From a bacterium (lineage in GTDB: Bacteria; UBA9089; CG2-30-40-21; SBAY01), in contig JBFLYA010000243.1 in the NCBI GenBank assembly GCA_040757115.1, positions 1 through 5,601 of the forward strand: a stretch of 5,601 nucleotides of DNA, read 5' to 3'. This document shows, one piece after another, positions 34 through 3,461 of the stretch. Both the position numbers and the translations under genes were made by a program. The stretch's first letter is position 1. Every line of letters begins with the position of its first letter. The notes beneath the pieces were generated by a model that had not been told where the DNA came from, searched no databases, and worked only from the letters and a program-made list of their open reading frames with translations.

Positions 34-870
34 ATGAGAATCAAGCCGCTCTTTATAGAACAGATTGTCAAGAAAACATTATTTTTAGGCACTGCCTTAA
101 CGGTCTTAATTTTATTATTCATTATCTTCTATGTGCTCAAGAATGGGCTGGCAGTAATAGATTTAGAATTTCTTTTAAGTTCACCAAAAGAACTCGGCAG
201 AGCTGGAGGAATATTCCCCTGCATTATAGGAACAATTATCCTTCCCGTAGTAGCAATTCTCATTGCCACGCCGCTTGGTGTTGGCACTGCCATCTATTTA
301 ACAGAATACACAAGAGAGAGTCGGTTGACAAAAATAATTAGATTTGGCACTGAATGTCTGGCTGGAGTGCCATCTATTATCTTTGGTTTATTTGGATTTG
401 TTCTTTTTGTTGTTTATCTTGGTTTTGGTTGGTCAATTCTCTCTGGAGGATTTACATTGGCTTTTATGATTCTGCCAACAATAATTCGCACTTCGGAGGA
501 GGCAATTAAATCTGTGCCTTATGCCTATCGTGAGGTAAGTTTTTCACTTGGCGGAACCAAATGGCAAAGTATTACCAGAGTTGTGCTTCCTCAAGCATTA
601 CCCGGAATAGTTACCGGCATAATCTTAGGTATAGGTAGAAGTATCGGCGAGACCGCCGCGGTAATATTTACGGCTGGTTCATCCTTACAAATCCCGGATT
701 CTTTATTTGATTCAAGTAGAACGATGGCTGTCCATTTTTACATTTTGACCCGCGAGGGTATCTCTATGCAAAATGCCTACGGCACAGCCACTATCCTGAT
801 AATTGCTATTTTATTAATTAATCTCTTTGCCTACTGGTTGATGCACCGGTTTATGGCAAAGTTTTCCTGA
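34..870 (+). CDS. pstA: Phosphate ABC transporter permease PstA
   Basis: This is an inner-membrane permease subunit of the Pst high-affinity phosphate importer, which pairs with PstC to form the channel. The 278-residue product has about six hydrophobic segments (roughly residues 14-35, 61-89, 109-130, 134-151, 191-216 and 250-271). The cytoplasmic EAA loop of binding-protein-dependent permeases is clear: EEAIKSVPYAYRE from 155, then SLGGTKWQSI and VVLPQALPGIVTG, the surface that docks on the ATPase. The GRSIGETAAV stretch (201-210) is typical of PstA/PstC. Length is normal for PstA. The ATG start is supported by a GGGAGGGAGG run at 16-25, eight bases upstream, although this frame stays open to the window edge. 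A TGA in another frame overlaps the start as ATGA (34-37) and could be the end of pstC. The next gene lies 114 bases downstream, an unusually long gap for this operon. Assignment to PstA rather than PstC rests on order and overall resemblance and is fairly secure. Confidence 0.95.
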   Translation: MRIKPLFIEQIVKKTLFLGTALTVLILLFIIFYVLKNGLAVIDLEFLLSSPKELGRAGGIFPCIIGTIILPVVAILIATPLGVGTAIYLTEYTRESRLTKIIRFGTECLAGVPSIIFGLFGFVLFVVYLGFGWSILSGGFTLAFMILPTIIRTSEEAIKSVPYAYREVSFSLGGTKWQSITRVVLPQALPGIVTGIILGIGRSIGETAAVIFTAGSSLQIPDSLFDSSRTMAVHFYILTREGISMQNAYGTATILIIAILLINLFAYWLMHRFMAKFS

Positions 871-984: not shown

Positions 985-1740
985 TTGGAAGATAAAATTA
1001 TCGTTAAAGACCTTAACCTTTACTTTGGCTCATTTTGTGCTCTGAAATCTATTAATCTGGAGATTAGAGCGAATGAGATTTTAGCCATTATTGGGCCGGC
1101 AAAATCAGGAAAAACTACATTTTTACGCAGTTTAAATAGATTAAATGACTTAATTCATAATGTAAAAGTAGAAGGCGAGGTTCATCTTGATGGTAAAAAT
1201 ATTTACAAAGAGGATATTTCACTTAGCTGGCTTCGACGAAAGGTAGGAATGGTATTTGCCCTGCCGGTTCCACTTCCAGGAAGTATATTTGAAAATATTA
1301 CCTACGGACCTAAACTGGCTGGTGTTACTTCTAAAGAGACACTTGCATATCTGGTCGAGAAGAGTCTAAATGCCGCATTTTTATGGGATGAGGTAAAAGA
1401 TAGACTGCATACCTCTGCACTTAAACTCTCTGGTGGTCAACAACAGCGATTATGTATTGCCCGCACATTAGCCTTAGAGCCTGAGGTAATTTTATTAGAC
1501 GAGCCCTGCTCAGGACTTGACCCAATCTCTACCGCTAAAATAGAAGAGGCACTCCATAAATTAAAAAAAGAATATACTATAGTTCTTGTAACAAACAATA
1601 CAAAACAAGCGGCAAGGGTATCAGATAACACCGCATTCTTTTTAATGGGAAATTTGGTAGAATATGGTTTAACAGACCATATTTTTACTGTCCCTCAGGA
1701 TAAAAGGACCGAAGATTATATCTCCGGAAGGTTTGGATAA
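985..1740 (+). CDS. pstB: PstB-type phosphate ABC transporter ATPase, copy 1 (Q-loop and H-loop degenerate)
   Basis: This is an ATP-binding subunit of the phosphate importer on the cytoplasmic face of the PstA/PstC channel. Domain order is that of PstB: A-loop Tyr13, Walker A GPAKSGKTT (37-45, unusual inside but with GK-T intact), Q-loop region, LSGGQ signature (148-152), Walker B with LLDEP (D172, E173), D-loop SGLD (176-179), H-loop region, and the PstB-typical RTEDYISGRFG C-terminus. Two key residues are missing. The Q-loop Gln is Ala92 (codon GCC at 1258), in FALPVPLPGS where PstB usually has FQ-P-P-FP-S. The switch His is Asn204 (AAC at 1594), giving VTNN instead of VTHN. The remaining frame is full length (251 residues) with no frameshift, so it is not simple decay. 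It starts with TTG. The neighbouring pstB copy starts 2 bases after its stop and has the complementary defect, so the two probably form a heterodimer. Family membership is secure; activity as a homodimer is doubtful (inference). Confidence 0.95.
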   Translation: MEDKIIVKDLNLYFGSFCALKSINLEIRANEILAIIGPAKSGKTTFLRSLNRLNDLIHNVKVEGEVHLDGKNIYKEDISLSWLRRKVGMVFALPVPLPGSIFENITYGPKLAGVTSKETLAYLVEKSLNAAFLWDEVKDRLHTSALKLSGGQQQRLCIARTLALEPEVILLDEPCSGLDPISTAKIEEALHKLKKEYTIVLVTNNTKQAARVSDNTAFFLMGNLVEYGLTDHIFTVPQDKRTEDYISGRFG

Positions 1741-1742
1741 AA

Positions 1743-2498
1743 ATGACAGATAAAATTGAAATCACCAATCTATCATTTTATTATGGTAACTTTTTAGCAT
1801 TAAAAAATGTCCAGATGAATATTAAAGAAAAGGCAGTTACGGCTTTAATCGGACCATCAGGCTGTGGGAAATCAACATTGCTTCGCACACTTAATCGAAC
1901 AAATGAATTACTCGAAGGAACAAAGGTAGAGGGAAAGGTGCTAATTGACCAGCAGGATATTTATGCCCCTCAAACCGATATAATCCAATTGCGAAAAAAG
2001 GTAGGTATGGTTTTTCAACGGCCCAATTGTTTTCCGTTATCTATCTATGATAATGTGGCTTACGGACCAAAGGTTCATGGCATCAAGAAAAAGGTTGAAT
2101 TAGACAGAATAGTAGAGAAAAGCCTGATTGCCACATTGCTTTTTGATGAATTAAAAGATAAATTAAAACAATCCGCATTAAGTCTATCGTTAGAACATCA
2201 ACAACGACTATGTATCGCTCGTGTTCTGGCTTTAGGTTCGGAGATTATTTTACTTGATGAGCCTTGCTCTGCCCTTGACCCAATTACTACCTTACGCATT
2301 GAAGAGCTATTAGCAGACCTCAAAAAGGATTACACGATTGTCATTGTTACTCATAACATGCAACAGGCGGCAAGGGTCTCAGATTATTCTGGTTATATGT
2401 TATTAGGGGAACTTGTTGAATTTGACCGAACATCTAAAATATTCACCAACCCGCAGGATAGACGAACCGAAGATTATATCACCGGAAGGTTTGGGTAA
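1743..2498 (+). CDS. pstB: PstB-type phosphate ABC transporter ATPase, copy 2 (signature motif degenerate)
   Basis: This is the second ATP-binding subunit of the phosphate importer, 251 residues like its neighbour and alignable to it without gaps (about 139 identical positions by hand count). It has a textbook Walker A GPSGCGKST (37-45), Q-loop Gln92 in FQRPNCFPLS, Walker B and catalytic Glu in LLDEP (D172, E173), D-loop SALD and switch His204 in VTHN. The ABC signature is altered: LSLEH at 148-152 (codons CTA TCG TTA GAA CAT, 2184-2198) replaces LSGGQ, while the following QQRLCIAR is intact. Losing both glycines should abolish its ability to complete the partner's ATP site. It starts with ATG two bases after the pstB1 stop; a GGAAGG at 1726-1731 within the end of pstB1 is the likely ribosome binding site, suggesting coupled translation. 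Together with copy 1 it predicts one canonical and one degenerate ATP site. PstB family assignment is secure; the heterodimer is inferred. Confidence 0.95.
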   Translation: MTDKIEITNLSFYYGNFLALKNVQMNIKEKAVTALIGPSGCGKSTLLRTLNRTNELLEGTKVEGKVLIDQQDIYAPQTDIIQLRKKVGMVFQRPNCFPLSIYDNVAYGPKVHGIKKKVELDRIVEKSLIATLLFDELKDKLKQSALSLSLEHQQRLCIARVLALGSEIILLDEPCSALDPITTLRIEELLADLKKDYTIVIVTHNMQQAARVSDYSGYMLLGELVEFDRTSKIFTNPQDRRTEDYITGRFG

Positions 2499-2792: not shown

Positions 2793-3461
2793 ATGGAAAG
2801 ATTTTTTGATGAGGAATTAGAAGAATTGAAGGCGAAGCTACTTTATATGGCTGAGATAGCAGAAAAGATGATAGAATTGGCTATTCGTGGATTAATAGAA
2901 CGGAATAAGGATTTAGCCTCGGGGGTGTTTAAGGCTGAGAAGGAAATAAATATACTTCATATTGAGGTGGATGAATTGTGCCTGCGGCTCATTGCCCTAC
3001 GACAACCAACGGCTAAAGACTTGAGATTTATTACCGCCGCAATGAAGATAAACAGCGAATTAGAACGAATTGGAGACCAATCTGTCAATATCTCAGAAAA
3101 TACTGAGGTCTACTTAAATTATCCTGAAGTAAAACCATTAATTGATACCCCACGCATGGCAGAGATTGCCAGACAAATGGTCAAAGATAGTCTATCTTCA
3201 TTTGTAGATAAGGATGTAGAGTTAGCTCGCTCTGTCCTTCGACGCGATGATGAAGTAGATGGCTTACGAGACCAGATATTTCGCGAGCTTTTAACTTATA
3301 TGATGTCAGACCTGACGAAGATTCAACCAGCATTAGCCTTAATTCTTATTGCCCGAAATATCGAACGGATAGCCGACCACGCCACAAATATCAGCGAAGA
3401 TGTAGTATTTATGGTTTTAGGCAAGGATATAAGACATCATATTGAAGAAGTGAGGGAATGA
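2793..3461 (+). CDS. phoU: Phosphate signalling and transport regulator PhoU
   Basis: PhoU is a peripheral cytoplasmic protein that, in known systems, links the Pst transporter to the PhoR/PhoB phosphate sensor and represses the Pho response when phosphate is plentiful. The 222-residue product is all-helical in character and shows the family's two repeated three-helix halves. The first has LRQPTAKDLRFITAAMKIN (69-87) followed by ELERIGDQSVNISE (89-102). The second has LALILIARNIERIADHATNISEDVVF (181-206, described here by its span). The acidic E-R-I-x-D motifs at 91-95 and 191-195 are the metal-cluster ligands of PhoU. Length is normal. The start at ATG 2793 follows AAAGGAGG; the longer in-frame version beginning at 2736 reads repeat DNA and is rejected. 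It follows pstB2 after a 294-base repeat-filled gap and ends 9 bases from the converging dapL. No phoR or phoB lies in the window. Identification is secure. Confidence 0.96.
   Translation: MERFFDEELEELKAKLLYMAEIAEKMIELAIRGLIERNKDLASGVFKAEKEINILHIEVDELCLRLIALRQPTAKDLRFITAAMKINSELERIGDQSVNISENTEVYLNYPEVKPLIDTPRMAEIARQMVKDSLSSFVDKDVELARSVLRRDDEVDGLRDQIFRELLTYMMSDLTKIQPALALILIARNIERIADHATNISEDVVFMVLGKDIRHHIEEVRE

Follow-up and report, generated by a model that had tools for sequence, protein, structure and literature searches.

Few bacterial ATPases are conserved as widely as PstB, which is regarded as a homodimer. The stretch of DNA analysed here, referred to as the window (a whole contig of 5601 bases belonging to a 4.3 Mb genome that is 99.87% complete), encodes two PstB proteins side by side, neither of which carries the complete set of catalytic motifs.

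Two diverged PstB copies in one pst operon

The two reading frames had been described in the first-pass annotation as adjacent, 251 residues long and alignable without gaps, which was confirmed here with an identity of 55%, and every residue that had been named for PstB1 and PstB2 was found in its place when both were aligned (Table 1). E173 is present in both window proteins. PstB1 displays further changes of its own that had gone unmentioned, namely a P-loop reading GPAKSGKT, F97 replaced by L and A177 of the D-loop replaced by G. Both proteins pass the curated TIGR00972 PstB equivalog cut-off, and the AlphaFold model of PstB1 (mean pLDDT 93.7) compares with E. coli PstB (9k3x chain C) at a TM score of 0.94 and 52% identity, showing an intact ATPase fold. 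An assembly or sequencing error was ruled out, the same residues being found in a separate genome of the same genus (G001) and in dozens of others.

E. coli PstSCAB (PDB 9k3s, 9k3x, 9k3y) belongs to the same transporter family and follows the same operon logic with PhoU. Its two PstB subunits, however, are identical, with Q, H and LSGGQ all present, whereas the window holds two diverged copies that would make up one consensus and one degenerate ATP site. Since PstB1 is without Q92 and H204 and PstB2 without LSGGQ, the window system is, judged by its motifs, a variant and not a plain member of the homodimeric E. coli-type Pst.

Table 1. Features of the window, with the model scores or residue counts that support them
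Feature	Position	Strand	Evidence
PstA permease subunit	34..870	+	TIGR00974, 287.8 bits (cut-off 193.45)
PstB1 ATPase subunit	985..1740	+	TTG start, GGAG upstream; TIGR00972, 358.7 bits (cut-off 343.2)
PstB1 Q-loop position 92, Gln to Ala	1258..1260	+	A in 85/88, D in 2/88 and P in 1/88 conforming pairs
PstB1 signature LSGGQ (148-152), intact	1426..1440	+	[LMI]SGGQ in 88/88 conforming pairs
PstB1 switch position 204, His to Asn	1594..1596	+	N in 88/88 conforming pairs
PstB2 ATPase subunit	1743..2498	+	TIGR00972, 376.3 bits (cut-off 343.2)
PstB2 Q-loop Gln 92, intact	2016..2018	+	Window alignment
PstB2 degenerate signature LSLEH (148-152; LSGGQ in canonical PstB)	2184..2198	+	D, E or Y at 151 in 75/75 first-set pairs
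PstB2 switch His 204, intact	2352..2354	+	Window alignment
PhoU phosphate signalling protein, operon end	2793..3461	+	TIGR02135, 206.3 bits (cut-off 130.25)

PstC and PstS are encoded on another contig of the same genome (C55) and both pass the PstSCA models. The terminal 127 bases of C55 match the start of the window without a difference, which makes pstS-pstC-(small ORF)-pstA-pstB1-pstB2-phoU the most likely order of the operon across the two contigs. The association of the PstB pair with PstS, PstC, PstA and PhoU and this gene order are repeated in relatives, the named ones closest in PstB1 being Candidatus Desantisbacteria, and phoU lies downstream of the pair in most loci examined. On family membership of all subunits the substrate would be phosphate; a non-phosphate substrate is not favoured, the Pst-specific models being passed by all of them. 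Beyond phoU, on the minus strand, lie a gene for LL-diaminopimelate aminotransferase and then dapB. The small ORF (...GYGFLEKVYENAMVIEL...), which interrupts the pst operon between pstC and pstA on C55 (L131 1-707), is one that we take to resemble GxxExxY proteins, and the contig break falls just 3' of it, at the start of pstA. Repeats based on GGTAATTGGTAA / TTACCAATTACC occupy intergenic positions 919-984, 2500-2530 and 2738-2790 of the window, on both sides of pstB1-pstB2, and the motif occurs 12 times in the 78 kb of other loci sampled from this genome.

Conservation and joint inheritance of the two PstB types

The first-pass annotation had proposed that genomes be searched for adjacent pstB pairs and residues 92, 148-152 and 204 read in them. 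A first set was made of close PstB1 relatives in a collection of 84,980 species genomes, the PstB1 query biasing it towards PstB1, and a survey set of 389 genomes, mostly of different families, extended over the domain. Because scores with the PstB2 profile alone do not separate PstB2 from canonical PstB (canonical Firmicute PstBs reach 428 bits), motifs had to be read one by one, and removal of duplicates left 89 distinct adjacent PstB-PstB pairs of any kind. The same partition of six features was found in 88 of these 89, the first gene being without Q92 and H204 and with [LMI]SGGQ, and the second with Q92 and H204 and without SGG in its signature; the pattern of the window is therefore not due to chance. 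Relatives in which the defects do not co-occur, named beforehand as evidence that would count against the pairing, did not turn up, since the one non-conforming pair consists of genes 2 and 3 of a three-gene cluster (L153) whose genes 1 and 2 conform.

The 82 PstBs found outside such pairs comprised 68 fully canonical proteins, 8 of PstB1 type, 5 of PstB2 type and one intermediate (L080), and none of these 82 combined both kinds of defect in one chain. The sole chain seen to do so is the third gene of L153, with Q92, N204 and LSNGQ. This locus (G057 C35, 2536-5757) also holds a highly diverged PstB1 (P92, DEF, SIAVDP).

PstB1 was present in 28 of the 389 survey genomes, and in one more (G253) below threshold. 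The partition is spread over about a dozen phyla, the named sources including Desantisbacteria, Omnitrophota, Spirochaetota, Verrucomicrobiota, Kiritimatiellota, Lentisphaerota, Ignavibacteriota, Bacteroidota, Hydrogenedentota, Aminicenantes, Acidobacteriota, Planctomycetota and WOR-3, some of these names being metagenome-bin labels that may be wrong.

A scan of the whole protein for positions more than 95% conserved in canonical PstB located the changes. PstB2 has lost only 150 and 151, both in the signature, while PstB1 has lost nothing there and eight positions elsewhere: 39 and 41 in the P-loop, 92 in the Q-loop and 97 immediately beyond it, 177 in the D-loop, the switch residue 204, and also 189 and 213. 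The replacements are specific, with N204 in 75/75, A92 in 74/75 and D, E or Y at 151 in 75/75 of the first set, and D at 92 in two more PstB1 from the survey. K43, D172 and E173 are invariant in both PstB1 and PstB2. The deviations are thus conserved across orthologues, as expected of a degenerate-site ABC transporter.

In a maximum-likelihood tree of 196 sequences, built by a quick method and with no bootstrap, PstB1 formed one clade (81 rows, SH-aLRT 100) and PstB2 another (75 rows, SH-aLRT 96), both apart from canonical PstBs. Evolutionary distances within the two types were correlated over 72 loci (r = 0.78, the largest value in 2000 permutations being 0.16), which indicates joint inheritance of PstB1 and PstB2. 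Comparison of the window with L051 gave dN/dS of about 0.11 for PstB1 and 0.06 for PstB2, rough values with dS near or above 1. The two types form old clades with good support, and purifying selection acts on both. At or near the base of both clades stands L080 (Myxococcota label), where the genes are ordered pstB2-pstS-pstC-pstA-pstB1-phoU; its PstB1-like copy has D92 and keeps H204, and its PstB2-like copy reads LTLGQ, keeping the second signature Gly. It is possibly an evolutionary intermediate.

In a reciprocal search of the same 389 genomes with the PstB2 profile, 58 scored highly. Motifs were read in all of these for which a pair had not yet been established, except G170, G213, G329 and G392, which are close relatives of genomes already read, and all were canonical apart from G253, which has a conforming pair, and G236, whose PstB2 is only 418 bases away from the end of its contig, so that a gene preceding it would fall beyond the break. 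Other than at this contig end, no PstB2 type without PstB1 was found in the search. In G319, PstB1 lies deep within a 161 kb contig and PstB2 on a separate 25 kb contig, each keeping its type, so the halves are retained together even when they are not neighbours. The one clear gap is in G004 (96% complete), where PstB1 is present and neither PstB2 nor PhoU was found anywhere in the bin. The genes on its contig C44 (L056) run pstS-pstC-pstA-pstB1 and then into unrelated ones; a contig may be missing or misassembled, or the genes may truly have been lost.

A third, canonical pstB elsewhere in the genome had also been named beforehand as an observation that would weigh against the pair, and a hidden copy of this kind was rejected: only two of 34 TIGR00972 matches in the window's genome (99.87% complete) pass the cut-off, the next best scoring 178.8 bits against 343.2, and the two next-best matches were read by eye as other ABC ATPases. 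Likewise, G056 and another ten genomes from the window's phylum have two PstBs each and no third at E <= 1e-80. The pair occurs without a further PstB in 19 genomes, and with one or two further PstBs, canonical where read, in 10 other surveyed genomes outside the window's phylum, where either half could in principle pair with the canonical protein. A canonical pstB closely precedes the asymmetric pst operon in eight loci (L058, L067, L079, L093, L097, L115, L123 and L128), and in several of these it comes with a pstA or phoU of its own; some bacteria thus possess the two kinds of Pst importer next to each other.

Adjacent paralogues with altered catalytic motifs could also arise if selection were relaxed once a gene had duplicated, so that one copy or both were decaying into pseudogenes and the partition was a coincidence. 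Against this stand the occurrence of the same partition in about a dozen phyla, the specific replacement residues, the intact reading frames, the low dN/dS and the absence from the window's genome of a canonical copy to take over. The chance of such decay is negligible, and for the clade as a whole it is refuted by conservation and dN/dS, so the earlier view that a perfect partition does not reflect decay was borne out.

A predicted PstB1-PstB2 heterodimer

Each composite ATP site draws Walker A/B and the Q- and H-loops from one subunit and its signature from the partner (PMC7756269). A homodimer of PstB1 would have two sites without Q and H and one of PstB2 two sites without the signature, while the heterodimer would have, by sequence, one complete site and one carrying every defect. 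All deviations thus lie within one composite site, in the window and in 88 of the 89 distinct adjacent pairs. The sequence pattern itself is beyond reasonable doubt. From it we infer heterodimerisation, ATP retention by the degenerate site and, on the basis of established ABC chemistry, which of the two sites would hydrolyse. It is accordingly highly probable that a PstSCA-PhoU importer is powered here by an obligate heterodimer of PstB1 and PstB2, in which one site is consensus and hydrolysing and the other is degenerate and acts as an ATP clamp; the pairing put forward in the first-pass annotation is thereby supported. Points against this reading are the catalytic Glu kept in PstB1, the apparent lack of PstB2 in G004, the H204 and second signature Gly kept at L080, and the canonical PstB that ten of the surveyed genomes have in addition to the pair.

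In such a heterodimer, Walker A/B, Q92, E173 and H204 of PstB2 would face LSGGQ of PstB1 and form the consensus, hydrolysing site, and Walker A/B of PstB1, without the Q-loop Gln and switch His, would face LSLEH of PstB2 and form the degenerate one. The latter probably binds Mg-ATP, as K43, T44, D172 and E173 are kept, and for this reason would hold it as a persistent clamp that hydrolyses hardly any ATP or none, a role proposed for degenerate sites in exporters (PMC7756269). One ATP would then drive each cycle, since the degenerate site would contribute little or no hydrolysis. In ABCB1, single Q-loop changes are tolerated and a double change abolishes activity (PMC7544095).

Since PstB1 has the catalytic Glu, some hydrolysis at the degenerate site is possible, and a heterodimer could be envisaged in which both sites hydrolyse, the PstB1 site being slow and active and the asymmetry tuning rate or sensing. 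The invariance of the catalytic Glu and Walker A Lys in PstB1 (75/75), unlike in exporter degenerate sites (PMC7544095), is in line with this, as is the slow hydrolysis retained by exporter sites in which Glu is changed to Asp (PMC7756269). However, Q92, H204 and the facing signature glycine 151 are lost together in the 88 conforming pairs, and an acidic residue at 151 would face the gamma phosphate, making activity at both sites improbable.

PstB1 might instead lie outside the ATP sandwich as a regulatory pseudo-ATPase, signalling for example via PhoU or a sensor kinase, with PstB2 homodimers powering transport. The position of phoU after the pair in most loci would suit such a role, PhoU being known to interact with PstB (PMC12096839), and in E. 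faecalis one of the two canonical PstBs encoded in tandem has an accessory role and can be replaced by excess PstB2 (PMC12096839). Yet PstB1 keeps [LMI]SGGQ, a motif acting in trans in the sandwich, in 88/88 conforming pairs, homodimers of PstB2 would lack a working signature at both sites, and PstB2 shows no other conserved loss, which fits a partner supplying the signature. This role is thus also unlikely, if by a hair less so than hydrolysis at both sites, and the obligate heterodimer with a clamped degenerate site is preferred to either.

On the membrane side, the window PstA has the coupling helix YREVSFSLGG (V168, S171), where canonical Pst has A or G at 168 and A at 171. Position 168 is the most divergent of PstA between pair and canonical systems (V in 80/90 vs A or G in 28/28) and 171 is among the top six (S in 77/90 vs A in 25/28), the two groups of genomes differing also in ancestry. 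A universal change of the PstA coupling helix had been expected and was not found, several Omnitrophota keeping the ancestral residues, and no comparable change was seen in the conserved core of the PstC coupling helix between pair and canonical systems. The changes at PstA 168 and 171, together with F97 to L beside the PstB1 Q-loop, point to docking of PstB1 on PstA, which is about an even call and is put forward as a lead rather than a result. Docking of PstB2 on PstC may follow, more tentatively than the heterodimer itself. For the full picture, in which a Pst subfamily of about a dozen phyla uses one hydrolysing and one ATP-clamped site per cycle, with PstB1 dedicated to PstA (co-diverged at A168 to V and A171 to S) and PstB2 to PstC, the chances appear evenly balanced.

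Relation to known transporters and significance

Firmicutes are known to have tandem canonical PstBs, and the pstB1-pstB2 genes of E. faecalis are likewise adjacent paralogues in a pst-phoU operon, about 60% identical and of unequal function, PstB2 being required and PstB1 accessory; unlike in the window, motifs are intact in both (PMC12096839). According to the same paper, tandem pstB paralogues had not been the subject of any earlier published study (PMC12096839). Bacillus subtilis pstBA-pstBB are adjacent paralogues too, for which a mixed PstBA-PstBB pair has been modelled (PMC11466899).

The exporters TM287/288, TAP and BmrCD, and yeast Pdr5, likewise combine a consensus with a degenerate composite site. 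Pdr5 is, by analogy of motifs, the closest parallel, one half having the H-loop His changed and the other the signature LNVEQ, which faces the degenerate site and is similar to the LSLEQ found here (PMC7756269, PMC8421411). Restoring that site of Pdr5 to canonical form abolished its activity (PMC7756269). Exporters usually lose the catalytic Glu, and Pdr5 also the Walker A Lys, whereas the Pst pairs keep both and lose the Q-loop Gln. Loss of that Glu is called a hallmark of exporter degenerate sites (PMC7544095), and with E173 kept in 75/75 PstB1 the Pst pair would work like the exporter design without being one. No common ancestry of the degenerate state with exporters is implied. Importers with one degenerate ATP site are represented by RbsA and NupO for sugars and nucleosides (PMC11466899); these belong to another importer class in which both ATPase domains share one chain and the degenerate half is without the Walker A Lys, in contrast to the separate genes of the Pst pair. 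The parallel with exporters drawn in the first-pass annotation holds for the combination of one degenerate and one consensus site and has to be qualified on two counts: degenerate importers were already known (PMC11466899), so that the principle extends beyond exporters, and retention of the catalytic Glu sets the chemistry apart. The open-access literature searched contained no description of a degenerate-site or asymmetric Pst, or of a heterodimeric importer of this kind; what appears to be new is the degenerate-site Pst importer, degenerate importers (RbsA, NupO) and tandem canonical PstBs (Enterococcus) being already known.

Both proteins are at present simply annotated as PstB, and neither would be expected from its sequence to work alone. 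Phosphate sensing is also touched: PhoU exerts its effect via PstB and would here encounter two unlike partners. The purpose of a degenerate ATP site is still a question for the exporters that have one (PMC7756269), and a large, natural and apparently obligate asymmetric class would allow it to be asked in an importer whose two halves are separately expressible genes. If the full picture holds, the degenerate-site exporters would have a natural equivalent in a nutrient importer, one arrived at through other chemistry, with Q-loop and switch lost and the catalytic Glu kept.
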